Source: Balneolales bacterium
Lineage (GTDB): Bacteria > Bacteroidota > Rhodothermia > Balneolales > HLUCCA01
Assembly: GCA_024711145.1 (NCBI GenBank)
Contig: JANJTJ010000049.1
Span: 1 to 42,745, forward strand
Length of the DNA stretch: 42,745 bases
Direction of reading: 5' to 3'
Part shown: one piece after another, positions 20,607-38,066 of the stretch
Layout of the letters: every line of letters starts with the position of its first letter
Numbering within the stretch: position 1 is the stretch's first letter
The notes under the pieces: generated by a model
Seen by the model: only the letters and a program-made list of their open reading frames with translations
Databases searched by the model: none
What the model was told of the DNA's origin: nothing
Translations under genes and position numbers: made by a program

Positions 20607-20627
20607 GGCCGGCGCCAACGCCTTCCC

Positions 20628-20662
20628 AAGCCCTGTCCGGTTCGCCGGGCAGGGCTTTTTTT
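20628..20662 (+). terminator. Rho-independent terminator of the TonB receptor gene
   Basis: AAGCCCTGTCCGG ttcg CCGGGCAGGGCTT followed by TTTTT. Confidence 0.9.
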
Positions 20663-20681
20663 ATGGGTATCTTGGCCCGCC

Positions 20682-21458
20682 ATGGCAACCTATCTGGAAA
20701 AACTGCAGGCTTCCGTACGCCGGAGCGGCTCCGTCTTGTGCGTGGGGTTGGACCCCGAGCCCGACGGAAGCGACCTGTTGGGTCGGTTGAAGCGCCTGAT
20801 TGACGAGACCGCCGATTCCGCCGCAGCCTACAAGCCCAACCTGGGCTTTTTCGAAGCCATGGGCACGGCGGGCATGGAGCTGTACGAAGCCGTACTCGGC
20901 CACATACCGGCCGGCCACATCGTGGTGGCCGATGCCAAACGGGGCGACATCGGCCACACGGCGGCCCGGTACGCGCACGCCCATCTGCGGGCGTGGCCGG
21001 CCGACGCCGTCACCGTGAATCCGTTGATGGGATGGGAAACCTTGGATCCGTATCTGACCGATGCGGCCAAGGCCGCCTACGTCTTGTGCCTGACCAGCAA
21101 CCCGGGTGCCGAAGACCTGCTGTTGCGGCCTTTCGCCGCCGCCGAGAGCCTGGCCCACCACATTGCGGCGACCGTGGGTGCCCGCCGCGATGCCGGCACC
21201 GCCGGCCTGGTTGTGGGAGCCACCCGGCCCGAGCGGCTGGCCTCGGTCCTTGCCGGCGCGCCGGACGCCCCTCTGCTCATCCCCGGCGTGGGAGCCCAGG
21301 GCGGCGACCCGGCGGCCTTGGGCCACGCCTTGCGCGGGCACCGGGGCATTCCCCTGGTGAACGTGACCCGTGCCATCGCCAACGCCGCCGAAGGTGCCCG
21401 CGCCGCCGCCCGCCGCTACCATGCGGCCCTCCTGCCCTTGGCCGAACCCCATGTCTGA
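20682..21458 (+). CDS. pyrF: Orotidine 5'-phosphate decarboxylase (PyrF type 2)
   Basis: 'SVLCVGLDPEPDG', 'AAYKPNLGFFEAMG', 'HIVVADAKRGDIGHTAARYA', 'PGVGAQGGDPAALGHALRG'. Confidence 0.93.
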   Translation: MATYLEKLQASVRRSGSVLCVGLDPEPDGSDLLGRLKRLIDETADSAAAYKPNLGFFEAMGTAGMELYEAVLGHIPAGHIVVADAKRGDIGHTAARYAHAHLRAWPADAVTVNPLMGWETLDPYLTDAAKAAYVLCLTSNPGAEDLLLRPFAAAESLAHHIAATVGARRDAGTAGLVVGATRPERLASVLAGAPDAPLLIPGVGAQGGDPAALGHALRGHRGIPLVNVTRAIANAAEGARAAARRYHAALLPLAEPHV

Positions 21459-21906
21459 GGCCCTTCCCGAGGTCGTGCTCTATACCGACGGGGCCTGCAG
21501 CGGCAACCCCGGTCCCGGAGGCTGGGCGGCCCTCCTCCTCTGGAACGGCCGCGAACGCGAGCTCAGCGGGCACCACCCCGCCACCACCAACAACCGCATG
21601 GAGATGACGGCCGTGATCGAAGGCCTCCGGGCCCTCAACCGCCCCTGCCGGGTCACCATCTGCTCCGACAGCGCCCTCATCATCAACGCCTTCCAAGACC
21701 GGTGGATCGATAGCTGGATGAAGCGCGGCTGGCTCAAAGCCGACAAGAAACCCGTCGAAAACCGGGACCTGTGGGAAGCCATGCTGCAAGCGGCCGCGCC
21801 CCACCACATCACCTGGAAAAAAGTGAAGGGTCATTCCACCGACCCCCTCAACAACCGGGTGGACGCCCTGGCGGTGGCGGCATCGAAGCTGACAGCTGAC
21901 AGCTGA
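21451..21906 (+). CDS. rnhA: Ribonuclease HI
   Basis: 'VVLYTDGACSGNPGPGGWAALL', 'TTNNRMEMTAVIEGL', 'SDSALIINAF', 'VKGHSTDPLNNRVDALA'; ATG overlaps the pyrF stop (ATGTCTGA). Confidence 0.95.
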   Translation: MSEALPEVVLYTDGACSGNPGPGGWAALLLWNGRERELSGHHPATTNNRMEMTAVIEGLRALNRPCRVTICSDSALIINAFQDRWIDSWMKRGWLKADKKPVENRDLWEAMLQAAAPHHITWKKVKGHSTDPLNNRVDALAVAASKLTADS

Positions 21907-21909
21907 CAG
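21887..21909 (+). repeat. Heptanucleotide array (AGCTGAC)x3+AG at the rnhA 3' end
   Basis: AGCTGACAGCTGACAGCTGACAG read directly; spans the rnhA stop. Confidence 0.95.
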
Positions 21910-21920
21910 TATATTCAGCC

Positions 21921-24644
21921 ATGCACCTCATCCTTCTTGTTGTCCTTTTCCTGCAGCTGCAGCCGCCGGACACCCTGAGCCTGGCCGATACCACGCGCTG
22001 GGGCAGCATCAACATGGCGAGAACCGAGGGATGGACGCTGCGCACCGCGGCCGATGCGGCTCCCGTGCCGGTGCGCATCAACGCCATGGACAGCATACGG
22101 GCGTTGCCGATCTGGAACGGTTACGGGCTTTTCGAAACCACCCTGATGGTGGACTCCGTGCTGAGCACCCGGCCCTGGATGTTGGGCTACTACTCGCCGG
22201 GCGGCGTGCGCATATGGGTCAACGAAACCCTGGTGTTGCAAACCGGAAAGCCGTCGCCGACGGCCGATGGCGAGGTATTGGGCCGGTTTCTGAACATTGT
22301 GGATCGGCCGGTGCGCCTGCTCGAAGGGCCGAACACCCTGCGCATCGAGTTGTCGGAGCATACCGTTCCGTTCCGATTCGTGAACGGATTGGGAAACGTG
22401 CGACCCGGCATGATCGACCTGTATCTGAAGAAACCGGGAACCGATGCGGTTCAACGCCGGCAACGGGCCTTCATCTTCGGCGGCACCATGTTGGTACTGC
22501 TCACGCTCATCCTGCTGCACGGCTTCCTATCGCTCCAATTCCGCAACGACTACCACCGCAACGTGATGCTCACCATCGGGTTCATCGCCTTGCACGCCTT
22601 CACCACCATGTCGGACAGCATCGTCGATTGGACGTTCGCCTACGCGCCGTTCTTCGAGATCTCGTACGCCACCACATTCATCTTCGTCATCTACTATTTC
22701 TCCCTATCGCTCCGGCATCTGTACCGGTTGCGTCCGCATCTCGCGCCCATGCGGGCGCTGCTCGGGGTGTCGGTGGCCATAGCCCTGTACGCGGCGTTCC
22801 ACTCCCGATATCCGCTCCACATCCTGCATCCCGTGTTGGCCTTGCTGACGGTCGGTTATGCCATTTGGACCATGCGGGAAGCCAAGCTGGCGTCGGCCGA
22901 CCACGAGATCGGCATTCTGCTGGTCGGATTTCTGATAACCATGGGCGGTGCCATCGGCTACTCCCTCGTGTACCTGGTATTGGGCATCGATAGCAACGCC
23001 GTACTCATCGTATCGGCCTTGAGCGCCTACGCCGGCCTACCGATCGCGCTCACCTTCAACATAGCCAAGAACTATTCGGGCCTGTTCAAGACCATGGAGC
23101 TGAAGGTGGTGGAGCGCACGGCCCAGTTGCAGCAGGCCAACGAATACAAGACCCGCTTCTTCGCCAACATCTCGCACGAATTCCGCACCCCGCTCACCAT
23201 CGCGCGGGGGTTGTTGGACCGGTTGGCCGGGCGCCGGCCCCACGATGCCGCCCTGTTGGCCGAGCTCTCGCCGGTGCAACGCAACCTGAGCCGCCTGGGC
23301 GACATGGTGAATCAGATCGTGGACCTGACCAAATCGGACCACGACCAGATGGCCCTCAACCGGAAAGTGTACCGGGTGGATTCGATCGTGACCTTGTCGG
23401 TGGAGTCGTTCCGGTCCTTGTCGGACCACCGCAACCAGACCCTGGTATTCGCCTCCGGAACGCCCGATGCGGCGGTGCATGCCGACCGCCTGAAGCTCGA
23501 GATCATGATCAACAACCTGGTTTCGAACGCCATCAAATACACCCCGGCGGGAGGCACCATCCGGGTGTCGACCAGCGCGGACGGGGGCCGATTCTACCTG
23601 CGTGTGGAGGATACCGGCCGCGGCATTCCGGCCGAAGAACGCGAAGCCGTCTTCCAACGCTTCCACCGCATCCGGCAGAACGATACCGAATATGTGGAAG
23701 GCATGGGCATCGGGTTGGAGCTCAGCCGCACCCTGGCCCGGTTGCATGGGGGCGAGATCCGCCTGCTCGCATCCGAAGCGGGTACCGGTTCCACATTCGA
23801 ACTGGAACTGCCCCTGTCGGATGCCGCCGGAGCCGAAGACATCCTGGAGGATTTCGACACCCATTTCCGTTCCCTGCCGCAGCCACCGGCGCCGGGGTCT
23901 GCCGAAAACCGCATCCTGCTGGTCGAAGACAACGACGACATGGCCGCCTACATCACCGATGTGTTGCAGGACGTGGGCACCGTGGAACGCGCCATCCACG
24001 GAGAGGATGCCCTGGCCAAACTGGCCGCAAGCCGGCCGGAACTCATCATCACCGACCTCATGATGCCCAGGATGGGCGGAAGCGCGTTGATCGCTGAACT
24101 GCGGAAACGGGACGAATGGCATGATGTGCCCGTGGTGGTGCTCACCGCCAAAGCCCTGGAGGCCGACAAACTCGACCTGCTGCGCATCGGGGTGGTCGAT
24201 TACATCACCAAGCCCTTCTCGGTGGATGAGTTGGTTTTCAAATCGCGCACCTTGTTGAACCTGGGCCGGAAGCGGAAGAAGGCGCGGATCATCCTGAGCA
24301 CCGAAGAAGCCTCGCTGGATCGGGAGCGGCTCACCCCGGAAGCCGCCGAATGGGTGAAGGCGAACATCAAAGACCAAAGCCTCTCGGTGGATGTGTTGGC
24401 CGACCACCTCAACATGAGCCGCCGCACCCTGTACCGCCTCATCGAAGCCGAAACGGGCATGTCGTCGGCCGAGTTCATCCGCGAGATCCGGTTGCAGACG
24501 GCCCGGCAGCTCCTGCACAACAGCACGTCGGCCACGTTGGAGCAGATCGCGGAAGCCGTAGGGTATGCCGGCGGGCGCACCTTCCGCAAACACTACCACG
24601 ATCGGTTCGGGCTGCACCCCCTGGATGAGCTCAAAAAGGCCTGA
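21921..24644 (+). CDS. Hybrid two-component sensor: periplasmic beta-sandwich-like domain + multi-TM (7TMR-DISM-like) + HisKA/HATPase + receiver + AraC-type HTH
   Basis: H-box 'FFANISHEFRTPLTIARGLLDRL'; 'VEDTGRGIPAEEREAVFQRFHRI'; receiver 'RILLVEDNDDMAAYITDVL...IITDLMMPRMGG...VLTAKA...YITKPF'; HTH 'SVDVLADHLNMSRRTLYRLIEAETGMSSAEFIREIRLQTARQLL'. Confidence 0.92.
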   Translation: MHLILLVVLFLQLQPPDTLSLADTTRWGSINMARTEGWTLRTAADAAPVPVRINAMDSIRALPIWNGYGLFETTLMVDSVLSTRPWMLGYYSPGGVRIWVNETLVLQTGKPSPTADGEVLGRFLNIVDRPVRLLEGPNTLRIELSEHTVPFRFVNGLGNVRPGMIDLYLKKPGTDAVQRRQRAFIFGGTMLVLLTLILLHGFLSLQFRNDYHRNVMLTIGFIALHAFTTMSDSIVDWTFAYAPFFEISYATTFIFVIYYFSLSLRHLYRLRPHLAPMRALLGVSVAIALYAAFHSRYPLHILHPVLALLTVGYAIWTMREAKLASADHEIGILLVGFLITMGGAIGYSLVYLVLGIDSNAVLIVSALSAYAGLPIALTFNIAKNYSGLFKTMELKVVERTAQLQQANEYKTRFFANISHEFRTPLTIARGLLDRLAGRRPHDAALLAELSPVQRNLSRLGDMVNQIVDLTKSDHDQMALNRKVYRVDSIVTLSVESFRSLSDHRNQTLVFASGTPDAAVHADRLKLEIMINNLVSNAIKYTPAGGTIRVSTSADGGRFYLRVEDTGRGIPAEEREAVFQRFHRIRQNDTEYVEGMGIGLELSRTLARLHGGEIRLLASEAGTGSTFELELPLSDAAGAEDILEDFDTHFRSLPQPPAPGSAENRILLVEDNDDMAAYITDVLQDVGTVERAIHGEDALAKLAASRPELIITDLMMPRMGGSALIAELRKRDEWHDVPVVVLTAKALEADKLDLLRIGVVDYITKPFSVDELVFKSRTLLNLGRKRKKARIILSTEEASLDRERLTPEAAEWVKANIKDQSLSVDVLADHLNMSRRTLYRLIEAETGMSSAEFIREIRLQTARQLLHNSTSATLEQIAEAVGYAGGRTFRKHYHDRFGLHPLDELKKA

Positions 24645-24732
24645 ATGGCACAACCGCGCATGCAAAATGGCATGATCGCGACGTAGCGGGCGGTGTAATC
24701 TCATGATGCCCATCATCCAGCCCGAGGCCATC

Positions 24733-27700
24733 ATGAGAACCGCACTGCTTACCGCCTTCCTGTCCATCGCCGCCACCGTATCGGCGCAACTGCCTGCCGA
24801 CGGCCTCCGCGTCCATCTCCGGGCCGATGCCGGCACCTCCACCACCGTCGAAAACGAAGGGATAACTTCGTGGACCGACCAATCCGGAAACGGATTCAAT
24901 GCCTCCGCACCTGGCGGGCAACCGGTCTATGTGTCGAATGCGATCAACGGTCAGCCGGCATTGTTCTTCAACGGCACCCAGTATCTCCACATCGCCAACA
25001 CGGGCACGCTCGGACTTGTGAACAGCGATTACGAGATGTTCTTCGTGGCGAAGAGCAGCCACAGCGGCATCCAGTTTCTGGGATCGGGCAGCTTGGGGCA
25101 CCACGAGGTGCATCTGAACGGTCTGGGCGCCCTGCGTTTCATTCCGAATGAGGAAGTCGGCATCAACCATGGCACGGATGGGGATTACACCGACGGCGAA
25201 CAGCGCATCTACAGCGTGCGGGCGACCACCACCCACGGCACCGCCCGGGTGAACGGCGTGGATGTGGGCACCACGGCGAACGCGCGGTCGGCATCGGATG
25301 CCCTGTTCAGCCTGGGCAACCGCAGTGTGGGCGGTTATCCCCTCGTCGGCCACATCGCCGAAGTGATCATCTACAACCGGGTATTGAGCAAGGTGGAACG
25401 GAACCAGGTGGAAGCCTATCTGGCCGAGAAATATGCGGTGACCGAGGTCTTCGCGGCCGCTCCCACCGTGGTGCTCGATTCGTACCAAACCAGCCATCAG
25501 CTCGGTGTGACATTCTCCGGATTGGTGAACCCGAACGGATCGGCCACCACCTACCGGTTCCTGTATGGTACCGACCCGGACAACCTGAACTTGAGCACCG
25601 AGCCGGTGTCTGTGGGTAGTGGGAACGCCTTCGTGGCGGCCTATGTCTCCGTGCCGGGCCTATCGCCGGCACAGACCTACCATGTGGTGTTGGAAGCCGA
25701 GAACGCCGCGCATGCGGTCCGATCTCCGACCGGGGAAGTCGCCATCACGGACCAACCCACGGGCACGCCCGTCGCGTCGATTCCCGCCTCGGGGCTTCGG
25801 GTACACCTCAAAGCCGATGCGGGCACCTCCACCACCGTGGAGAACGCGGTGGTGGACCAGTGGCTCGACGTGTCGGGCAACGGGTTGCGGGCGTTCCCCC
25901 CGGCCAGCCAGCCGGTCTACAGCCCGAACGCCATCAACGGCATGCCGGCCTTGCAATTCAGCGGGGTGCAAGCGCTCCATATCGCCAACACCAGCACGCT
26001 CGGCCTCACCGACAGCGACTATGAGATGTTCGTTGTGGCCAAAAGCGGCAACCCGGCCATCCAGTTCCTGGGATCGGGTGGCCTGGCTTACCACGAGCTG
26101 CACCTGAACGGTGCCGCCGGGCTCCGATTCATCCCCAAAAATCCGATGTTCGTGGACAACGGCGCCGACCAGGCGTTCACCGACGGCACGCCTCGGATTT
26201 TCGGCGTTCGGGCGTCCGCCACAACCGGTGTGGCCCGGGTGAACGGTGTGGACGCCGGGCAGTTCGGCGATGCCCGATCCGCCACCGACGCCATGTTCCG
26301 GCTGGGTATGCGGAACGACGGGACTTACCCCCTGTACGGCCACATCGCCGAAGTGCTCATCTACGACCGCACTCTGAGTGCCCCGGAACGCACCTTGGTG
26401 GAGCGCTATCTGGCCAGCAAGTATTCCATTTCGGGTGCGGCGCTCACCAGCCCCACGCTCGTGCTGAACACCCCCACCACGACGCAGGACCTCGGCGCCG
26501 TGGTCTCCGGCACCGTGAACCCCAACGGCGTGGCCACCACCTACCATTTTCTGTACGGTACCGATCCGGACAACATGACCCATGGCACCGAGACCGTCTC
26601 GGCCGGCGCCGGCACCGAACCGGTGGAGGTGGAGGCGGCCCTCGAGGGATTGGACCGCAACCAGGTCTATTACGTGAAGCTTGTGGCCGAAACCGCCTCC
26701 CAGATTGTGGAAACGGCAGCCCAGCGTTTCGATACCTCCTACCTCGAGGTGCTCGGCTTCGGCACCGATGTGGCGGTCGACAGCGAAAACCCGCAAGCAA
26801 CCCGCCTCACCGCCACGGTCCGGCTCGGGCTCCCCGCCGGTAGTGGCTCGGAGTACAAGATCCGATATGGCGCTTTCGAAACCGACTTCATCCCCATTAA
26901 CGCCACCGGCACGCTCGACGAGACCGTGTGGTTGCCGAACGACGACCTGGTATTCGGCCAGACGTATGACCTCGTGCTGATCGGGAAAGGTCCGACCGGG
27001 AAACTGACCTACAGCGATACGTTGTCGGTGGTGTATTACGGGATTCCATCTGCGGTTCTATCCTCGGCAGTGCCGTCTCCTGACGGAAGCGTCGTTGTGA
27101 CCGGAAGTGCGAATCCGAACGGATTTGCGACATCCTACTCCATCCTCTATGGAACGGATCTCGAAAGCCTGACAGCCACCGATGCGGTGGCATTGGGGAA
27201 CGGGACCTCGGCCGTCGCCATCAACCGCACCCTCGAATCGCTGACTCCCGGGCAGACGTACCACATCGTGTTGAGCGTTTTCAACAACGACGAAGTGGTC
27301 AGCCAGTCGGACACGCTCACGTTCAGCACCCGATGGCCCGGCGCCGACCTCACCCTGGCGGATGCGGACCCGCAGACCGGCGCCACCTTCGGCGGAGCGG
27401 TCTATCCGAACGGCTTCGATGCCGAGTACCGGTTCCGGTACGGCACCACCACGGAATTGGGCTCCGCTACCGAATGGTCCGCCGCCGGTTCGGGTACCGA
27501 AGCCGTCGAGGCCTTGGCGAGCGGAATCGCCATCGACAACAACGCCATCTATCAGGTAATCATGGAGGCGCGGATTGGGGCCAACCTCATCCGAACCGAC
27601 ACGCTCTCGTTCGATACCTATTTCGTAGAGAACCCGCAGGTGGAGCTGGGCCTGGCCTATGCGGACGGAGCCGAGCACATCCGGGTGAGCGGCAGTTTCG

Positions 27701-30700
27701 ACGCGGCCGGTTCTTCGGAAGCCACCTATCGCATCCTGTTCGGAACCGATGCGGAAGCCCTGGCGGCAGACCAGACCGGATTCGCCCCGGGAAACTTCAA
27801 CAACCCCGACCAGACGACGGGTTTTGAACGCTACCTGAATCCGGGCGAGGCGTTGAGCCCCGGTACCACCTATTTCGTGCGGGTGGAAGCCCGGAGCGCC
27901 ACCGGCAGAACCGCTTTCAGCGAAATCGGAAGCATCCTGTTCGCCGGTTTGCCGACCGCCACCTTGGATAGCATAACCACATTCCAAAATTTCAGCGCAC
28001 GGTTCCACGGCAGCATCCAAGCGAACAGCGGAACGGTGACCTCGGTAGTCCAGTACGGCACCGACCGGAACAACCTGGACCTCACCGGTCCGGATTCGCT
28101 CCTCACCAACCTGACCCCCGGCCTCATCTATTACGCCGCCTTGGCGGTCACGAATGCCAGCTATCCGACCCAACGTAGCGACACCCTCGCGATCGACATG
28201 CGGTATGCGACCATCTCGTTCTTCAATCCGGATGTGGTTACGCCTACCAGCGTTACCGCTTATTACGGCACCAATGCGCATGGGTCCCCGAAAAGCGGAT
28301 ATATCCGCTTTGGAACCGATGAAACCGACCTGAGCCAGACCGTCGCCGATCCGAACCAGATCACGGGTTCCACGATGGGTACCCGCACGCTCGACATCAG
28401 CGGCCTGACACCTGATGCCAGGTACTTCGGGCAATGGGTGGTCGAAGATCTGAACGGCGGACCCACCACCTATTCGGATGTCGTCGAATTCAACACCACA
28501 TTTCCGGAAGTGACGCTCGATTCGGTGCGCATGGGCGACAACCTGGTGCTGAACGCCTACGCCACCGTCAACACGAAAAACCAGAACGTCACCATTCGTG
28601 GTCAATACGCCGCCCAAGGCGACACCGATTTCGACACGCAGGACAGCAGATACTCCGTGACAGCCAGCGCCAGCACCTCTCCGGTCAATGTCGTCGTTCC
28701 GATGACGAATCTCAACGAAGACGAGACGTTCTCAATCCGGCTTCAGGCCACCAATCCATCGAACAAGAGCGGTTATTCCGACACGCTGAATGTCGACACC
28801 TACTTCGTCGATTACTACCAACCCACCGTCTCCTATTCCGGTGCGGATGTGGCAATCCGTGTCGAACTCGAAGCACAACCCGACCTCGAGTACGCTTACC
28901 GGATTCTGCGGGGAACCCGTGCCGATTCGCTTACCGCGATGAGCGACTTCGTGACCTTGACCACTTCCGAGCGCTACACCGACATCGAGGCCATCTTGGA
29001 AGCGGAAGCGTTCACTCACGGTACCACCTACCACTTCGCCATACAGGGGCGTGGCGCATCCGGCTGGCTCACGCAGAGCGACACCCTCAGCCTGTTCTTC
29101 CAATCGCCTCCGTTCGCCCGAACGCCGGTGGTGCAGCTCCTGCCGGACCTGAGCGCCACCGTATCCACAACGGTATTCCCGAACGGCCGCAGCCTCGACC
29201 ATCAGTTCCTCCTGGGCACCCCGCCCGACAGCTTGGTGGCCATCGGTACGCCGATGCGCATCAGCGGCTTCGATTCCGTGGTGGTAACCCGTGCCTTGGA
29301 AGACCTGGACCGGTTCGCCGACTACCACTTGACCCAACGGTTCACGGTTGTGGGGTCGGCCGACACCACCCGATCCGACACCGTGGCGTTCGACACGAAC
29401 TACCCCGGCGTTACCATCTACGACTATACCACCTATGTCGAGGTGGACTCCATCGGCGAACCGATTTACGGTTCCATCATCGGATACATCGAACCCGGCG
29501 GACTCGAAACCACCGCATGGGTAACCTACCGCGAAGAAAACGGAACCTTGGTGCAGACCACAGTGCCCGTGCAGGTGGAAACCCTGGAGGACCAGATCAC
29601 CGAGGTACCAATCCGTTTCGGTCCGTTGGACCCGAACACCGCCTACCGTGCCCGGCTGGTGGTTAGCAATGGCGAACGCACCAACGCAAGCGACAGCCTC
29701 TGGTTCGACACCACCTTCCCGCGCATCAACCGGGAAGCAGTCCAGCCCCAGGAGGACGGATCGGCATTCATAACCGCCAAGATCACCCGGGAAGGCAGCA
29801 CCGGCTATTACGGCTTGCTGTACGGAACCCACCCCGATTCCCTGATCAACCAGTACGAATGGCGCAACTACGGATCGTCGGATGCGGAGGAATTCACCAC
29901 CAATTTCAGTTTGTCCGGGTTGGATGAATCCAAGACCCATTTCGCCCGCCTGGTGATCATCCGCGGGTACGACCAACGCACCTACCGTTCGGCGGTCTTC
30001 AACTGGAACTATGCGAAACCGGTCGTGCTCAGCAGCCAGGTGACCCAATTCCAGGATCTGACCGCCCGGGTGGATGCCATGATCGACACCAAGGGCAAGG
30101 ATGTGCAGTTCTGGGTGGAATGGTCGAACAACCAAGTCGGGTCCGAATCGACGGATTTCGTACTCGTAGCGGGTAGCGACGAGCCCGTGGCCGTGCAGGT
30201 GACCCTGCCGGCGGTGCCCCGATACAGCGGCACCGTGTTGGCTTTGGCGGCTCAGGCCAACGGGTTGTCGCCGACCTACGCCGACACCACCACCATCCTC
30301 TTCGACTTCCCCGAACTCCTGGCGTTCGCGCAAACGCCGGCGATACTATGGTCGGACAACTCCCTGATGATCGACCTGGCCATGACGAACCCGTCGCGAT
30401 CCACCGATGTGGTGGCCCGATTCGGGTACCACCCGCATCCCGACAGCCTGGTGCATGTCTCGGAAACCATGACCTTCATGACGGAAGGCATCAACCAATT
30501 CAACTTGCCCATGGGTCCCGTGGTGCGCAATGACACGGTTTACTATCAATTCGAGTTGAATCACAACGGGTATGTCACCCGATCCGCGATCGGTTCGGTC
30601 TTTACCCGATCCCAGATCATCACCCTGGGCGAAGTGGACGTGACCTCTACCGGAGGCGGCACCTTCCGGGCCGTGGTGAACAGTGTGGTTGACCCGAACG

Positions 30701-33700
30701 GCCTTCCCACCACCATACAGGGGTTGATCTCCTCCACGCCGGACCTGGCGAATCTGGCCAATTTCGGCGATACGCAGTTGACCGAGCCTTCCGAACAAGC
30801 CTACAGCGTCAGCTTCGACGGGCTCACCATCGGCCAGACCTACTATGCCGTGTTCTCCGCTTATGACCACGTCAACTTCAACACATTCATCTTTTCCGAC
30901 ACGCTGGCCATCGCCTTCACCGCCGCTCCGCTGGCCGTGGAACTGGCCCTGCGGCCCGATTCCAGCCTGCAAGCCGTACTCACAGGCGTCGTGATTCCGG
31001 CCGGCCGCGACCTCACCTACCGCATCGCTTACGGCACCCAGCCGGGCACCCTGGACCAGACCACCGCTTCGGTTGCCGTATCGGGAGACAGCGCCACCGT
31101 GGCCATCACCGAAACCCTTGCCGGGCTCGACCGCTTCAGCACCGTATATGCCTCCGTGGTCCTGGAAAGCGAGGGCTACGACCCCATCCGGTCCGACACG
31201 GTATCCACCACCCTGGCCTACCCCGCCTTCACGTTCGGCACTCCCAGCCGCACCGCCGAAGGCGACCTGCAGGTTCCCATCATCGTGGACAACGGCGGAT
31301 TCGACACCTATGTGAAGCTGTGGTACGGCATCGGATCCGCAGACCCGGCCTCCGCAACCGATTCCATCGAAGTGGCCGGCTCGGAAGTACCGGTAACCAT
31401 CAACCGGCTGATACCCACCCCCGGCATCCACGTCGATGTGCGGTTCCTGGCCGAAGCCCGAACCGACGGATTGGTGAGCCGGAGCGACACCATGAGCTTC
31501 ACCACGCCGGGCCCCGACTTCACCTTCGTCCGCGCCTTCACCACCCCCGATCAGAAAGGCTTTTTTGAAGCGGTGGTGAACCCCAACGGCATACCCACGC
31601 AAATCCGGTTCGATTACGGAACCGGAGGATCGTTGACCCAGGCAACGGCCGTGATCGATGTCGGCAGCGGTACCGAGCCGGTAACCATCACGAACAACAT
31701 GGTGGACCTGGACTACCAGGCCACCTACATGGCGCGCATGTCGGTCTTCGGGGCCGGGTTCGATGTGGCATCCGACACCATCCACTTCAACACCATCCTG
31801 CCGGGTGCCGCCATCACCAATCTGACGGCCGACGCCAACGGCCAGGGCAGCGTAACGGTGGAACTCTTCAACCGCGGGTTGAATACCTATCTGCGCTTGG
31901 CGTACGGGCTGGTGGGGCAAGGCTATACCGACACCACAGCGGCCGTTTACGCCGCCTTCGTTTCCGATCCCCAGATCGTCCATCTGAATGTGTCCGGTCT
32001 GGCTCCGGTAACCGAATACGAAGTGAAGGTGTTGGTACAAGACGCGGCCGATCCGAACAAAGTGACCGTCTCGTCGGCGGTACCCTTGGTCACCCCGGCC
32101 GGAATACCCCTGGTGGAATTGCATGGCATCGTAGTCGATCCGCTAGACGAATCGATCACCGCCATCGGGCGGGTCAATCCCATGGGCCAGGCGATCGTCG
32201 TACGTGCCAACTATGTCAATCCGGATCTCGGCAACTTCCAAATCAACTACAATTACGGGCAAGAACTCACCGGTACCGAGTGGATCGACATCGAGCTCCC
32301 ACTGGTCACATCGATCGAAAAAAGACTGCCGGGCGGCGAAGGATCCACCGTGCAGGAAGACCATGAAGGCGTCTTCCCAACCGTCACCCTCATCGCACAA
32401 TACTTTGATTTCCCGGCAGGCTCGGATGCGCAGGTCAGCAGCGAAACCATACCCGCCAGCACGTCCGGCACCACCTATTTCGTAACCTCCCTGGCCGACA
32501 CGGACCACGGCGTAGGCCAGCACGGCACCCTGCGCTATGCGATGACACGATTGAATGAGACCGTGGTGGAAGGGCCCCGCAAACTCCGGCCGGGAGACGC
32601 CGCACGCACCGCGGACGGCCCCAAAACGAACGTGATCCATATCGTAGTGGAAGGCAGCCTGATGTTGACGGCTCCCCTGCCCACCGTCACGTCGAGTATG
32701 GCGTTGCTTGGTCCTGGCCGCGACCTCTTCACCATCGATGCGGGCGATCAGTTCCGTCCGTTCACCGTGGGTACCGATTCCATCTTCCGCTCGAACAGCG
32801 AGCCATACTTGTCTTTCGAGTTGAGTGATATGACCGTGAGCAACGGGTTCGCCCGCGGAACGGATGGTGTGGATGGAGGCGGAGGCGGCGCCGGCATGGG
32901 TGGCGCCCTGTTCGCCCACTACGGTTCTGTAACGGCATACAACGTGCTGTTCCACAGCAACTCGGCCACCGGCGGACTCGGCAGCGAGTTGGTAGGTATG
33001 GGCGGCCGTGGTGGCGACGCACCCGGTGTGGGCTTGGGTGGCACCGGTAACGGCGGTTTCGGCGGCGGTGGCGGTGCCCCCGGAGGTGCCGGTGCCTTCG
33101 GCGGTGGTGCGGGGGCCGGCTCACCTGTAGCGCCAAGCGGATTCGGCAACTATAACGTCGCAACCAGCACCCGCGGCGCCGACGGCTACAGTTTCGGTGG
33201 CGCCCTCTTCCAGCGTTCCGGTTACCTGACCCTCATCCAGATCGAGTTCGTCGGAAACCAGGTCCAAAACAACCGCTTCGGGCAGGGCGTCTTCATCATG
33301 AATACGCAGATCGACTTCAACGATGTCGTATTCGACGATGGGTATTATGATCCGGACCCGGAATTCGGAAGCAACCAATTCTACACCCACTTCGATGTTT
33401 CGCCTGCGCAGGCGCCGGTGTCGGCTGTAGCACACTACCTCACGACGACCACCGCGCGCATCGATGTGGAACGAGGCTCCGGTACCCACCGGTTGATCCT
33501 GGCCTCCACAATTGGTAACGAAGAAAGTGGTGGCGGCATCAGTGCGCATTGGTTCGAAGGCCTGCGGTTCCGGGCATCTACCGACATCACCGATCCCACC
33601 ACCGAAATCCAGAACGGCTACCGTGTGGTCTATGCCGACACCGGCGCATCGGTCACAGTTACCGGACTCGAGCCGGGCACCAGCTACGAGTTTATGGTGT

Positions 33701-36700
33701 TCGAATACTACGACACCCAGCAGGGCGATCTGTATGTCGCCTACAACCGGAACTACCTGGCCATCAATCACACCCATGTCCAGGGAGTGCCGGCGTTCAC
33801 GGATGTGGCCGGCAACGCCCTCCGCTTCTCCGGAGACGATGCCATAACCCTGGGCAACGCCACCGACGACTTCTACCTGGCCGACCACCTCACCCTTTCG
33901 ATGTGGGTGAACCCTTCGGCAATAGACCAACCCGCCACCTTGCTGCGCAACGGGCAGCGGTTCGCCCTTGGCACCACCCCGGCCGGCGCCGTGTATTTCG
34001 TGGCCGACAACGGCACCGTGCGCGACTCCGTGGCCACCTCGGCCGGTCTCATCCAAGCCGGAACCTGGCACCATATCGGTCTGGTCTCCGACTCGCTCCG
34101 CCACCGCATCTACGTGGATGGCATGGTGCGGGCAGATGTGTCGAGTGCCGGGGACACCCTGGTCTTCGGTGGAACCGCCGACCTGATAGCCGGGGAAGGC
34201 TATCGGGGCGACCTCGACGAACTCGCCATCTATCGTGCCGGTGGTACGCCGCTGTGGTCCATCCTCCATACGATGAACCGGATCGTGAGCGCACCCACAG
34301 CCGGTATGGTCGCCGCCTTCCAATTCAACGAATCTGCGACAGACACCACCATCAACAGTGTGAATAGCTCGTCGATCCACCTGGGAAGTAGCAGTCGGTT
34401 CGTTCCGGCCGGATATCGGATGTACCCCGGACTGACCTTCGCCTACGACGTGACCGACGTACTCATCGCCGGTACCAACCTGAAACTGCAGCGGGTGGTG
34501 GAGGAAGGAGACCCCGAGCCGATCGATGCCGTGTTGCTGGGGCAATACATGACCCCCGTGGCCAACGCACCCGATACCCTGGCCTTGGTCACCAACGACC
34601 GCATCTTCGTGTTGCAGCTGTTCGACACCACCGAAGACCTCCTCGCGCTGCATTTCAGCCTGCCGGGCGGATTCGTCACCGGGTCGGTCGCCATGTCGCA
34701 ATTCAAATTGTACCACCGACCGTTGCGCAGCGATGCCGGATGGACCCGAGTAGCCGATGCCGCCTCGTTCCAGCAAGGCAACGACATCGTGTTCGAACTC
34801 GATTCCACATCGAATGGCGAATACATTGTGGCGCGAGACATCCAGGTGGCATACCAACAGACCGCGGGCAATGCCCACCGCTTCGATGGGAACACCGCCT
34901 ACATCTGGTTCGCCAACAACACGTGGTTGAACAGCCTCACCAGCCACACCATCCAGATGTGGTTCAAGACCGACGATGCCACCCGGGCCGTGCAGTTCCT
35001 CACCTCCAAAGGCAACGAGTTCATGGAGTTGCACCTTTCCGGAGCCAACCGCTCGCTGCGGTTCATCCCCCGAGCCGGTGCCTTCTATGACACGCAGGCC
35101 AACTCGATCCGGTCGGGTGAATGGACCCACGTAAGCGCCACCTTCGATGTGGCCGGTGCCAGGGTCAGCGTGTACCTGAACGGGGTGGAAGTTCCGCTGA
35201 CCGCCTCCGGTTACACTTCCGGGAATCCGTACACCGGCACCTACACCACAAGCGAATCGCTCAACATCGGGATTCGCACCGATGGCGGGTATCCGTTCGT
35301 CGGCACCATCGACGAACTGCGGGTTTGGAATGGTAGTCGTACCCCGTTGCAGATCTGGGACGACATGCACGGCACCCTGCCGCCCACCTTCCAACCCGCT
35401 CTCGTGCTGTATGCGCAATTCAACGAGAGCACGGGGAATCTCGTGAGCGATGCCGCGCTCGGTACCCAGGGCTACCGGACGAGCTTCTTCGACAACGGCA
35501 ACTGGGTGGCCTCCACCATTCCGATCAACCAGCAAGCGGAATACTCGGCGCAGTTGACCGGCCAGGCCGGTTGGAGGCTTCTGGCAAGTCCGGTACCGAC
35601 CACGGTCGGCGACCTGCTCGACGGGATATGGACCCAGGGTTTCGAAGGCACCGCCAACCCCGACGCCAACCCGCACGTGTTCACCTGGAACACGGCCAAC
35701 GGATCGAACAGCGCGGCGAACTGGGTACCGGTAAGCAGCAGTTCGCAACCCCTGCAGCCGGGTGAGGGCGTCTTCGCCTATGTGTACGCCACCGATCCCG
35801 ACGGCCAGGGCAGTTTCCCCAAAACACTGGCGGTAACGGGCCAAGGCCTCCTCCAGGACGCGCCCCTTACCACGCGTCTCAACCCGAACACCGACGGATG
35901 GGCGCTCGTGGGCAACCCGTATGCCACCGACATCCTCTGGGGCGACCTCACCCGGAATGGCGTGTATGATGTGCCTTACCTGTGGGACGCCAACGCCGAC
36001 GAGTGGGTCACCTGGAACGGTAGCACAGGCAGCCTTACCGACGGCCGCATCGGGGCATTCAATGCCTTCTTCGTAGCCACCATGGGCGAAAGCCCCAGCC
36101 TTGCCGCACCCTTCTCGGCGCGGCGTGCCGGCGCGACGCAATTCGTGGGCAAAGTGGTGCAGACCCAGGCCGCCGCCACCTTCGCGCTGAAGGTCGAGAG
36201 CCCCGACGGTCGCTCCAACCGCGCCTGGTTCTCCTTCGATGCCGAAGGAAAACTCGGGTTGGACGCGCACGACGCCTTCAAGCTGGCTCCCTACTCGGCG
36301 CAGTATGTGCAGTTGGCTTCGGTCATCCAAGACAGCATCCGCTTGGACATCAACCACTTGCCCCTGCTTACCGAAGAGCTTGCGGTACCGCTGCGCATCC
36401 GATCGACCGCCAGCGGCACCTACCGCCTCGTACTGCATGCGAACGCCTTGCCGCAGGGCTGGGACTACGCCGTGCTCGACACCGAAACCGGTGCGGTCAC
36501 CCGCCTGGAAGAGCCGCTCGAATTCGCCTGGACCGGCGCCGGCGCCGAGCTCACGCGGTTCGTGCTGAAGCTCTCGCCGATCACCATCACCCAGGTAGAA
36601 CCGCCCGCCGATGGGCCGCTCGTGTTCGGGTTGGACCAGAACTATCCCAACCCCTTCAATCCGTCGACTACCATCGCCTACCGGTTGGCGGCCGCCGGCA

Positions 36701-36882
36701 ACACCCGGCTCACGGTCTATGACCTGCTGGGGCGCGAGGTGGCGGTACTGGTGGATGGGGCCATGCCGGCCGGTCGCCATACGGTGAGCTTCGACGGAGC
36801 CCGCTTCGCCTCCGGCGTGTACCTGTACCGGCTCGAATCGGGCGGGCGCGTGCTCACCCGCAAATTCACCTTACTCAAATAG
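24733..36882 (+). CDS. Giant (~4,049 aa) secreted multidomain T9SS substrate: LamG-like domains, ~21 FN3-like modules, Gly-rich beta-helix-like segment, C-terminal type A sorting domain
   Basis: Signal peptide 'MRTALLTAFLSIAATVSAQ'; C-term 'FGLDQNYPNPFNPSTTIAYRLAAAGNTRLTVYDLLGREVAVLVDGAMPAGRHTVSFDGARFASGVYLYRLESGGRVLTRKFTLLK'; one uninterrupted ORF; in-frame ATG 24703 is less likely. Confidence 0.93.
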   Translation: MRTALLTAFLSIAATVSAQLPADGLRVHLRADAGTSTTVENEGITSWTDQSGNGFNASAPGGQPVYVSNAINGQPALFFNGTQYLHIANTGTLGLVNSDYEMFFVAKSSHSGIQFLGSGSLGHHEVHLNGLGALRFIPNEEVGINHGTDGDYTDGEQRIYSVRATTTHGTARVNGVDVGTTANARSASDALFSLGNRSVGGYPLVGHIAEVIIYNRVLSKVERNQVEAYLAEKYAVTEVFAAAPTVVLDSYQTSHQLGVTFSGLVNPNGSATTYRFLYGTDPDNLNLSTEPVSVGSGNAFVAAYVSVPGLSPAQTYHVVLEAENAAHAVRSPTGEVAITDQPTGTPVASIPASGLRVHLKADAGTSTTVENAVVDQWLDVSGNGLRAFPPASQPVYSPNAINGMPALQFSGVQALHIANTSTLGLTDSDYEMFVVAKSGNPAIQFLGSGGLAYHELHLNGAAGLRFIPKNPMFVDNGADQAFTDGTPRIFGVRASATTGVARVNGVDAGQFGDARSATDAMFRLGMRNDGTYPLYGHIAEVLIYDRTLSAPERTLVERYLASKYSISGAALTSPTLVLNTPTTTQDLGAVVSGTVNPNGVATTYHFLYGTDPDNMTHGTETVSAGAGTEPVEVEAALEGLDRNQVYYVKLVAETASQIVETAAQRFDTSYLEVLGFGTDVAVDSENPQATRLTATVRLGLPAGSGSEYKIRYGAFETDFIPINATGTLDETVWLPNDDLVFGQTYDLVLIGKGPTGKLTYSDTLSVVYYGIPSAVLSSAVPSPDGSVVVTGSANPNGFATSYSILYGTDLESLTATDAVALGNGTSAVAINRTLESLTPGQTYHIVLSVFNNDEVVSQSDTLTFSTRWPGADLTLADADPQTGATFGGAVYPNGFDAEYRFRYGTTTELGSATEWSAAGSGTEAVEALASGIAIDNNAIYQVIMEARIGANLIRTDTLSFDTYFVENPQVELGLAYADGAEHIRVSGSFDAAGSSEATYRILFGTDAEALAADQTGFAPGNFNNPDQTTGFERYLNPGEALSPGTTYFVRVEARSATGRTAFSEIGSILFAGLPTATLDSITTFQNFSARFHGSIQANSGTVTSVVQYGTDRNNLDLTGPDSLLTNLTPGLIYYAALAVTNASYPTQRSDTLAIDMRYATISFFNPDVVTPTSVTAYYGTNAHGSPKSGYIRFGTDETDLSQTVADPNQITGSTMGTRTLDISGLTPDARYFGQWVVEDLNGGPTTYSDVVEFNTTFPEVTLDSVRMGDNLVLNAYATVNTKNQNVTIRGQYAAQGDTDFDTQDSRYSVTASASTSPVNVVVPMTNLNEDETFSIRLQATNPSNKSGYSDTLNVDTYFVDYYQPTVSYSGADVAIRVELEAQPDLEYAYRILRGTRADSLTAMSDFVTLTTSERYTDIEAILEAEAFTHGTTYHFAIQGRGASGWLTQSDTLSLFFQSPPFARTPVVQLLPDLSATVSTTVFPNGRSLDHQFLLGTPPDSLVAIGTPMRISGFDSVVVTRALEDLDRFADYHLTQRFTVVGSADTTRSDTVAFDTNYPGVTIYDYTTYVEVDSIGEPIYGSIIGYIEPGGLETTAWVTYREENGTLVQTTVPVQVETLEDQITEVPIRFGPLDPNTAYRARLVVSNGERTNASDSLWFDTTFPRINREAVQPQEDGSAFITAKITREGSTGYYGLLYGTHPDSLINQYEWRNYGSSDAEEFTTNFSLSGLDESKTHFARLVIIRGYDQRTYRSAVFNWNYAKPVVLSSQVTQFQDLTARVDAMIDTKGKDVQFWVEWSNNQVGSESTDFVLVAGSDEPVAVQVTLPAVPRYSGTVLALAAQANGLSPTYADTTTILFDFPELLAFAQTPAILWSDNSLMIDLAMTNPSRSTDVVARFGYHPHPDSLVHVSETMTFMTEGINQFNLPMGPVVRNDTVYYQFELNHNGYVTRSAIGSVFTRSQIITLGEVDVTSTGGGTFRAVVNSVVDPNGLPTTIQGLISSTPDLANLANFGDTQLTEPSEQAYSVSFDGLTIGQTYYAVFSAYDHVNFNTFIFSDTLAIAFTAAPLAVELALRPDSSLQAVLTGVVIPAGRDLTYRIAYGTQPGTLDQTTASVAVSGDSATVAITETLAGLDRFSTVYASVVLESEGYDPIRSDTVSTTLAYPAFTFGTPSRTAEGDLQVPIIVDNGGFDTYVKLWYGIGSADPASATDSIEVAGSEVPVTINRLIPTPGIHVDVRFLAEARTDGLVSRSDTMSFTTPGPDFTFVRAFTTPDQKGFFEAVVNPNGIPTQIRFDYGTGGSLTQATAVIDVGSGTEPVTITNNMVDLDYQATYMARMSVFGAGFDVASDTIHFNTILPGAAITNLTADANGQGSVTVELFNRGLNTYLRLAYGLVGQGYTDTTAAVYAAFVSDPQIVHLNVSGLAPVTEYEVKVLVQDAADPNKVTVSSAVPLVTPAGIPLVELHGIVVDPLDESITAIGRVNPMGQAIVVRANYVNPDLGNFQINYNYGQELTGTEWIDIELPLVTSIEKRLPGGEGSTVQEDHEGVFPTVTLIAQYFDFPAGSDAQVSSETIPASTSGTTYFVTSLADTDHGVGQHGTLRYAMTRLNETVVEGPRKLRPGDAARTADGPKTNVIHIVVEGSLMLTAPLPTVTSSMALLGPGRDLFTIDAGDQFRPFTVGTDSIFRSNSEPYLSFELSDMTVSNGFARGTDGVDGGGGGAGMGGALFAHYGSVTAYNVLFHSNSATGGLGSELVGMGGRGGDAPGVGLGGTGNGGFGGGGGAPGGAGAFGGGAGAGSPVAPSGFGNYNVATSTRGADGYSFGGALFQRSGYLTLIQIEFVGNQVQNNRFGQGVFIMNTQIDFNDVVFDDGYYDPDPEFGSNQFYTHFDVSPAQAPVSAVAHYLTTTTARIDVERGSGTHRLILASTIGNEESGGGISAHWFEGLRFRASTDITDPTTEIQNGYRVVYADTGASVTVTGLEPGTSYEFMVFEYYDTQQGDLYVAYNRNYLAINHTHVQGVPAFTDVAGNALRFSGDDAITLGNATDDFYLADHLTLSMWVNPSAIDQPATLLRNGQRFALGTTPAGAVYFVADNGTVRDSVATSAGLIQAGTWHHIGLVSDSLRHRIYVDGMVRADVSSAGDTLVFGGTADLIAGEGYRGDLDELAIYRAGGTPLWSILHTMNRIVSAPTAGMVAAFQFNESATDTTINSVNSSSIHLGSSSRFVPAGYRMYPGLTFAYDVTDVLIAGTNLKLQRVVEEGDPEPIDAVLLGQYMTPVANAPDTLALVTNDRIFVLQLFDTTEDLLALHFSLPGGFVTGSVAMSQFKLYHRPLRSDAGWTRVADAASFQQGNDIVFELDSTSNGEYIVARDIQVAYQQTAGNAHRFDGNTAYIWFANNTWLNSLTSHTIQMWFKTDDATRAVQFLTSKGNEFMELHLSGANRSLRFIPRAGAFYDTQANSIRSGEWTHVSATFDVAGARVSVYLNGVEVPLTASGYTSGNPYTGTYTTSESLNIGIRTDGGYPFVGTIDELRVWNGSRTPLQIWDDMHGTLPPTFQPALVLYAQFNESTGNLVSDAALGTQGYRTSFFDNGNWVASTIPINQQAEYSAQLTGQAGWRLLASPVPTTVGDLLDGIWTQGFEGTANPDANPHVFTWNTANGSNSAANWVPVSSSSQPLQPGEGVFAYVYATDPDGQGSFPKTLAVTGQGLLQDAPLTTRLNPNTDGWALVGNPYATDILWGDLTRNGVYDVPYLWDANADEWVTWNGSTGSLTDGRIGAFNAFFVATMGESPSLAAPFSARRAGATQFVGKVVQTQAAATFALKVESPDGRSNRAWFSFDAEGKLGLDAHDAFKLAPYSAQYVQLASVIQDSIRLDINHLPLLTEELAVPLRIRSTASGTYRLVLHANALPQGWDYAVLDTETGAVTRLEEPLEFAWTGAGAELTRFVLKLSPITITQVEPPADGPLVFGLDQNYPNPFNPSTTIAYRLAAAGNTRLTVYDLLGREVAVLVDGAMPAGRHTVSFDGARFASGVYLYRLESGGRVLTRKFTLLK
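24786..25440 (+). repeat. LamG-like domain copy 1 within the giant protein
   Basis: 'LPADGLRVHLRADAGTSTTVENEG...GGYPLVGHIAEVIIYNRVLSKVERNQVEAYLAEKYAV'. Confidence 0.75.
25785..26431 (+). repeat. LamG-like domain copy 2 within the giant protein
   Basis: 'IPASGLRVHLKADAGTSTTVENAV...GTYPLYGHIAEVLIYDRTLSAPERTLVERYLASKYSI', clearly homologous to copy 1. Confidence 0.75.
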
Positions 36883-36892
36883 GGACCCCGCC

Positions 36893-37072
36893 ATGAAATA
36901 CCTAGTGATGATCCTGTTGGTGCTCGGCACGGCAACCGTTCTGGTGGCCCAAGCCCCGCCACCGCCCACCCTGCTACCACCGCCGGCCCAGGCTCCCATC
37001 GACGGGGGCTTGGGGTTGTTGGCGGCGGCCGGGGCCGGTTATGCCTGGCGCCGACTCAAAAAGCGCACATAG
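36893..37072 (+). CDS. 59-aa small secreted/anchored protein with PID-CTERM-like C-terminus (absent from the ORF track)
   Basis: MKYLVMILLVLGTATVLVAQAPPPPTLLPPPAQAPIDGGLGLLAAAGAGYAWRRLKKRT*; ATG 36893-36895, TAG 37070-37072; signal peptide, Pro-rich linker, PIDGG, TM, basic tail. Confidence 0.82.
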   Translation: MKYLVMILLVLGTATVLVAQAPPPPTLLPPPAQAPIDGGLGLLAAAGAGYAWRRLKKRT

Positions 37073-37088: not shown

Positions 37089-38066
37089 ATGAAGCTCATG
37101 ACCGCCGCCGTGGCGCCCGCCTACGGCCCACCCGAAGTGCTCCGCCTGGAACAGGTACCCGTTCCGCAACCCAAGGCCGACGAGCTCCTCATCCGGGTGC
37201 GTGCCACCACCGTGAACCGCACCGATTGCGGCTTCCGAAGCGCCGAATACGCCATCATCCGGTTTGTGGGAGGCGGGTTGCTGAAACCCCGGCATCCGAT
37301 CCTGGGCTGCGAATACGCCGGCGAGGTGGTGGCCGTGGGCGACCGCGTCACCCGGTTCGCGCCGGGCGACCGCGTGTTCGGTTTCGACGACGCCCGGTTC
37401 GGGTCGCACGCCGAATACCGCATTTCGCGCCAAACCGATGCCTTGGCCCGCATACCCGATGGCTGGACCTATGAGGAAGCGGCACCCCTGCTCGAAGGCG
37501 CCCACTATGCCGATTGCGACTGGCGGGCCGCCGGGCTGCGCGCCGGCATGCGGGTGTTGGTGAACGGAGCCACCGGCGCCATCGGCTCGGCGGCGGTGCA
37601 ACTGGCCAAACAGGCCGGCGCGCAGGTTACCGCCGTGTGCGCCACCCCGCACCTGGAACTGGTGGCCTCGCTCGGCGCCGACCAGGTGGTCGATTACACC
37701 CGAGAGGACGTGGTGGCGCGGGGCGGTACCTACCATATCGTGTTCGATGCCGTGGGCAAACGCCGCTTCCGCGATTTCATCTCCGTGCTCGAACCCGACG
37801 GGGTGTACATGAGCACCGAACTGGGTCCGCGGGCCGAAAACATCACGCTGGCCCTGCGCGGCCTATTCACCAAAGGCAAGCGGGTCCTGTTCCCCATACC
37901 CACCATTTCCCAGGCCGATGCCGAACGGTTCGCCGCCCTGGCCTCATCGGGCGCCTACCGGCCCGTGATCGATTCGGTGCGGCCGTTCCGGGAAATCGTG
38001 GATGCCACGCGCCACGTGGAAACCGGTATGAAAACCGGCAACGTGGTGCTCCGCCACGACCCCTGA
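37089..38066 (+). CDS. NAD(P)-dependent alcohol dehydrogenase / quinone oxidoreductase-like protein (MDR superfamily)
   Basis: 'PEVLRLEQVPVPQPKADELLIRVRATTVNRTDCGFR', 'HPILGCEYAGEVVAVGDRVTRFAPGDRVFGF', 'VLVNGATGAIGSAAVQLAKQAGAQVTAV'. Confidence 0.92.
   Translation: MKLMTAAVAPAYGPPEVLRLEQVPVPQPKADELLIRVRATTVNRTDCGFRSAEYAIIRFVGGGLLKPRHPILGCEYAGEVVAVGDRVTRFAPGDRVFGFDDARFGSHAEYRISRQTDALARIPDGWTYEEAAPLLEGAHYADCDWRAAGLRAGMRVLVNGATGAIGSAAVQLAKQAGAQVTAVCATPHLELVASLGADQVVDYTREDVVARGGTYHIVFDAVGKRRFRDFISVLEPDGVYMSTELGPRAENITLALRGLFTKGKRVLFPIPTISQADAERFAALASSGAYRPVIDSVRPFREIVDATRHVETGMKTGNVVLRHDP

Follow-up and report, generated by a model that had tools for sequence, protein, structure and literature searches.

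Here, we found a mini-protein gene of 59 codons directly behind the giant T9SS type-A cargo gene of the window (the whole 42,745-nucleotide stretch of Balneolales DNA analysed in this study), and genes of this kind recur behind one class of T9SS-A cargos that share a domain. In the best reading overall, the mini-protein is probably a substrate of exosortase X (XrtX) whose production alongside these cargos would serve their assembly or anchoring at the cell surface. PID-CTERM and XrtX are already known as models; what appears to be new here is the coupling of candidate mini-protein exosortase substrates to T9SS-A cargo. The relevant features of the window are as follows:

24703..36882, + strand: giant gene that precedes the mini-protein gene and encodes a T9SS type-A cargo of 4059 aa (TIGR04183, Laminin_G_3, fn3)
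35551..36624, + strand: shared cargo domain of ~370 aa, referred to as the GNPF domain (match 35557-36621, 343 bits)
36643..36867, + strand: T9SS type-A sorting domain of the giant (TIGR04183, 45 bits; 38.8 bits on residues 3981-4055 of the 4059-aa protein, cut-off 23)
36893..37072, + strand: PID-CTERM mini-protein gene, 59 aa (NF046080 match and codon-position test)
36893..36949, + strand: predicted signal peptide, residues 1-19, with cleavage at VLVA↓Q (helix 2-18 in the structure model; Q-rule, PMC5837995)
36950..37003, + strand: residues 20-37 (QAPPPPTLLPPPAQAPID), predicted to form the mature Pro-rich stub in the periplasm and the PID motif
37004..37069, + strand: Gly/Ala-rich helix followed by the basic tail, residues 38-59 (PID_CTERM model on 34-58; model helix 37-58)

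The mini-protein ORF starts with the ATG at 36893, 10 bp past the stop of the giant gene (24703-36882), and its stop codon ends at 37072 (59 codons; MKYLVMILLVLGTATVLVAQAPPPPTLLPPPAQAPIDGGLGLLAAAGAGYAWRRLKKRT). The next gene (37089-38066), which encodes a zinc-type dehydrogenase/quinone oxidoreductase, starts 16 bp past this ORF. The preliminary description had placed a 59-aa ORF with a PID-CTERM-like tail at exactly this position (the final Thr was omitted from its sequence), and the tail was borne out by the model search that it had proposed: NCBIfam NF046080 (PID_CTERM) matched with 41.6 bits (cut-off 26, E 7e-11) over all 25 model positions (1-25), at residues 34-58 of 59 and thus at the C-terminus. 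No Pfam family matched above its cut-off; scores were also insufficient for Pfam PEP-CTERM (PF07589, 7 bits, cut-off 20.7) and for the LPXTG sortase substrate model (TIGR01167, 10.9 bits, cut-off 15.9). In the 25-codon core, differences at codon positions 1/2/3 were 0.27/0.22/0.68 among homologues and 0.23/0.21/0.50 among the paralogues of the same genome. Because these differences fall mostly at third positions, the PID-CTERM frame is under selection as a protein. The ORF is conserved in relatives, the lack of which had been named beforehand as a reason to abandon it. Its short length, under the usual gene-calling cut-off, would suit a chance ORF or a decayed remnant of the 3' end of the cargo gene, an explanation that is practically inconceivable and was rejected on the match to a curated model, the nine paralogues, the conservation across families and the third-position bias of the substitutions.

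The structure model of the mini-protein contains two helices (2-18 and 37-58) with a Pro-rich linker between them and no strands. By pattern only, the hydrophobic helix 2-18 followed by VLVA↓Q corresponds to a Sec signal peptide. In Bacteroidetes, cleavage by signal peptidase I leaves a Gln exposed, which turns into pyroglutamate (the Q-rule; PMC5837995, PMC10653852). A small-x-small↓Q cleavage site was found in 122 of the 137 evaluable homologues, several of the other 15 also showing AQ or SQ, and in most members the stretch from this Q to PID measures 14-20 residues. P35, G38 and G39 are invariant and D37 is conserved in at least 90%; the best-conserved part as a whole is the PID-helix-basic segment, an arrangement that is the usual make-up of a sorting signal. 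An AxA↓Q signal-peptidase site is present in most precursors, so that cleavage probably leaves a Pro-rich stub of 14-20 residues on a single membrane helix as the mature product.

Two variations of this architecture were observed. Seven PID-CTERM ORFs (L087, L054, L056, L174, L176, L180 and L121) have an in-frame N-terminal segment of ~45 aa with a zinc-ribbon-like CxxC...CxxC pattern, which precedes the signal-like helix and had no Pfam match in the one member tested. At another locus (L156, G191:C1:2167132), the PID_CTERM match ends a 995-aa open frame and has a poor motif (VPIDGEVWVLLAGG); this match may come from a larger PID-CTERM protein or have arisen by chance.

The genome that contains the window (2.3 Mb, 138 contigs, 90% complete) has nine PID-CTERM ORFs above the cut-off and 58 T9SS-A tails. 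For eight of the nine, a T9SS-A tail lies directly upstream on the same strand (p ~3e-12 by chance, with a background of ~3% of genes and the gene number estimated), and the ninth copy, on contig C25, follows a same-class cargo of that contig at a distance of 3.7 kb. PID-CTERM ORFs occurred in 25 of the 41 genomes of the order-level sample. Over all fetched loci, within the order and beyond, TIGR04183 was present in 102 of 117 distinct same-strand upstream neighbours, against 26 of the 83 downstream ones, a number that includes several cargos coming next in an array; the median gap between the cargo stop and the inferred PID start was 84 bp. The same cargo-then-PID order was observed in six genomes outside the order (G103, G191, G071, G140, G148 and G258). 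A search of genome contigs for related loci returned two loci only, one of them in a Balneola metagenome-assembled genome (MAG; L127) with the same gene order, whose cargo tail and PID ORF are closely similar to those of our genome. Judging from this similarity, the order sampled here is probably Balneolales. It had been proposed that such ORFs might recur 3' of giant T9SS genes. They do recur directly 3' of T9SS cargo, and the second refuting condition named beforehand, the lack of such a neighbourhood, does not apply either. The partners, however, are not giants as such but a class of T9SS-A cargos of any size (median 1037 aa) sharing one domain.

Some PID ORFs have no cargo neighbour, including four behind fumC (class II fumarate hydratase) in genus g7 (L061, L062, L068 and L080), and the flavobacteria-like f27 genomes carry single PID copies away from cargo, some of them behind a prenyl synthase gene. 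Our own genome has an array on one 18.6-kb contig (L049, G000:C24), where three PID-CTERM ORFs are interspersed among five T9SS-A cargos with the domain. In the window, the giant gene is preceded on its strand by genes for a TonB-dependent receptor and for a hybrid histidine kinase whose output domain is of the AraC type (17856-24644).

An alignment of 52 PID-linked cargos revealed a common block of ~370 aa ahead of the T9SS tail, preceded by diverse N-terminal parts. This GNPF domain has the motifs GWRxLSxP...QG...GNPF...YVWD...IAPxQGFxV...DAxKLxPL, and no model in Pfam or NCBIfam covers it. Its structure was modelled as all-beta (pLDDT 91.4, pTM 0.89), and a fold search in the PDB gave no convincing match (best E 0.09, query TM at most 0.19 among the matches listed). 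The domain was detected in 93 of the 94 T9SS cargos linked to PID, the exception being in G258. In our own genome, 14 of all 58 cargos contain it, as do 6/6 PID-adjacent cargos complete enough to judge (p 7e-5). GNPF-domain cargos are also present in some genomes with neither PID nor XrtX (up to six candidates were scored per genome, which gives presence and not counts). Secretion of these cargos thus needs neither of the two.

A scan with Pfam PF09721 found one exosortase of ~175 aa in most PID-positive genomes, whose type is NCBIfam exosortase X (XrtX, NF046081). The same scan missed the exosortase of our own genome, which then looked discordant; it was found with a relative's protein and NF046081 (G000:C135:608-1090, 193.8 bits, cut-off 170), and it contains the active-site Cys, Arg and His in the motifs DGCNG, NILR and HDYS. 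In the phylum sample, where an exosortase was called by an XrtX-model match with E below 1e-10, all 50 PID-positive genomes had an exosortase versus 42 of the 247 PID-negative genomes (table [[50,0],[42,205]]; Fisher p 1.6e-31, a statistic that ignores phylogeny). Matches of 60-120 bits in distant genomes are probably of the XrtF or XrtY type rather than XrtX. Within the order, 35 genomes had both, none PID only, one the exosortase only and eight neither, and presence and absence were both found inside genera g13, g18 and g24.

In the nearer sample, XrtX was identified in 22 of 25 PID-positive genomes (one as a fragment); the three others (G004, G012 and G033) are all assemblies of 330-440 contigs. 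Six genomes showed the reverse, XrtX without a PID match: G035 and five of genus g11 (G015, G018, G021, G024 and G030). Since G035 has nine cargo-domain matches, diverged PID substrates may have been missed there. Gene order points in the same direction as co-occurrence: an exosortase gene directly follows the PID ORF in five genomes, in three of which it is XrtX above the cut-off (G103, G297 and G081), while that of G140 is XrtX-like (134 bits, under the cut-off of 170) and that of G071 is XrtY-like (115 bits, under its cut-off of 160). In both G140 and G071 these genes form cargo-PID-exosortase rows, and the cargo is a T9SS-A protein with the GNPF domain. XrtX is therefore likely to be the processing enzyme of PID-CTERM mini-proteins, and this predicted enzyme-substrate link is well supported by genomics.

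Besides, many genomes of the order have a gene for a membrane protein of ~165 aa that overlaps xrtX or lies behind it (e.g. L188:3324-3848(-), L192:3712-4242(-) and L205:3794-4300(-)), and no NCBIfam or Pfam model matched this protein. The Flavobacterium-like genus g58 has an XrtF-like-scoring exosortase and weakly scoring domain-bearing proteins, mostly without a PID_CTERM match, which makes it a candidate source of XrtF substrates.

Within genomes, the PID sequence did not significantly track the cargo domain of its neighbour (rho 0.13, p 0.11), whereas the cargo domain and the T9SS tail do covary (rho 0.41, p 0.001). The lack of tracking counts against one-to-one recognition or a private chaperone role, and a handle or peptide common to the cargo class and produced in step with it fits better. 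It also bears on the possibility that the product is an unprocessed small membrane protein, either a two-helix hairpin or single-pass, which assists the cargo encoded with it, during periplasmic passage or at the T9SS, in a chaperone- or SprF-like manner; the co-occurrence with exosortase would then reflect shared lineage history. Such a helper could well be encoded directly behind the cargo, as sprF is behind type B cargo (PMC12618676), and the N-terminal CxxC...CxxC segment of seven members is compatible with an N-in hairpin. Against it stand the PID-exosortase gene pairs of five genomes and the fact that every PID-positive genome of the phylum sample has an exosortase; T9SS-A cargo is also encoded in PID-negative genomes, and conservation is highest in precisely the segment that makes up a sorting signal. 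We therefore regard an unprocessed helper as unlikely.

For the XrtX substrate, we propose the following course of events, in which the mini-protein would serve the single XrtX of the cell as a dedicated substrate. Judging from its sequence, it would be exported by Sec and cut by signal peptidase I at VLVA↓Q. The resulting peptide would span the inner membrane once, with a short Pro-rich stub in the periplasm, probably capped by pyroglutamate, followed by PID, the Gly/Ala helix and a basic cytoplasmic tail. Co-occurrence and operon linkage suggest that XrtX might then cut at or near PID↓GG and transfer the stub to an envelope acceptor. Because genes of this kind lie just behind T9SS-A cargos with the GNPF domain, the peptide would be co-produced with that cargo class. 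Most tentatively, the XrtX-processed peptide may help to assemble or anchor these cargos at the surface, acting as a handle common to all of them and not as a private partner of each. Co-transcription with the giant gene, as had been suggested, would suit the 10-bp gap between the two genes, and the suggested anchoring role is a conceivable function.

The processed stub may alternatively have a role of its own as a signal or structural peptide, either free or linked to an acceptor (e.g. in the organisation of exopolysaccharide), so that adjacency to cargo would couple only its dosage to an adhesin regulon. This would agree with the general tie of exosortases to exopolysaccharide and biofilm (PMC12188702), with PID sequences that are unmatched to cargo within genomes and with the single-copy PID ORFs away from cargo in flavobacteria-like genomes. 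On the other hand, dosage coupling alone does not predict an adjacency restricted to one cargo domain class (93/94), and we consider an independent peptide quite improbable. A bolder reading is a two-sortase system for surface assembly, in which XrtX would make a periplasmic peptide conjugate from the co-encoded mini-protein, and GNPF-domain T9SS-A cargos would be bound to this conjugate at the cell surface, covalently or via the domain, beside or replacing the PorU/A-LPS route; it is a doubtful proposal at present.

Previous work on Flavobacterium johnsoniae reported that XrtF mutants lose biofilm and surface colonisation, like the porU, porV and porZ mutants of the T9SS in the same study (PMC10936215). 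This resemblance fits a shared surface function without proving one. The targets of XrtF were stated as not yet known in a 2025 paper (PMC12188702, citing PMC10936215). For the exosortases of Bacteroidota, the present analysis names concrete candidate substrates, mini-proteins small enough to slip past gene calling, and it joins exosortase and T9SS sorting, two systems that have been studied apart, through one cargo class with a new domain.

With regard to known systems, the closest are the PID-CTERM (NF046080) and exosortase X (NF046081) models themselves: the motif, helix and basic tail score above the curated cut-off here, as does XrtX in the same genome. Because the two accessions are consecutive, their curators probably saw them as a pair. 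The substrates described here differ in being mini-proteins with almost no passenger that are tied to T9SS-A cargo and a shared domain. In the openly accessible literature, no paper naming PID-CTERM was found, nor one that links PID-CTERM/XrtX to T9SS-A cargo or the shared domain, or one on small proteins encoded downstream of T9SS cargo.

XrtF and its associated protein in F. johnsoniae (PMC10936215) offer another parallel, in that XrtF is a Bacteroidota exosortase of the same superfamily and some f27 genomes with PID-CTERM ORFs have an XrtF-like-scoring exosortase. However, for the exosortases studied here, scores with the XrtF model do not exceed 89 bits (cut-off 90) and those with the XrtX model reach 249, and the XrtX-adjacent protein of this order matches no NCBIfam model. 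The SprB-SprF and PorP-SprF-like shuttles (PMC12618676) resemble our loci in having an accessory gene directly 3' of the cargo gene at several loci per genome, but the cargo here is type A and not type B, no cargo-specific matching was detected, and the product is a 59-aa peptide with two predicted helices instead of an outer-membrane beta-barrel. Finally, PEP-CTERM/EpsH shares with this system a tripartite C-terminal signal and a membrane enzyme with Cys, Arg and His, whereas here the motif is PID and not PEP, the passenger is only 14-20 residues long and the genes are tied to T9SS cargo.
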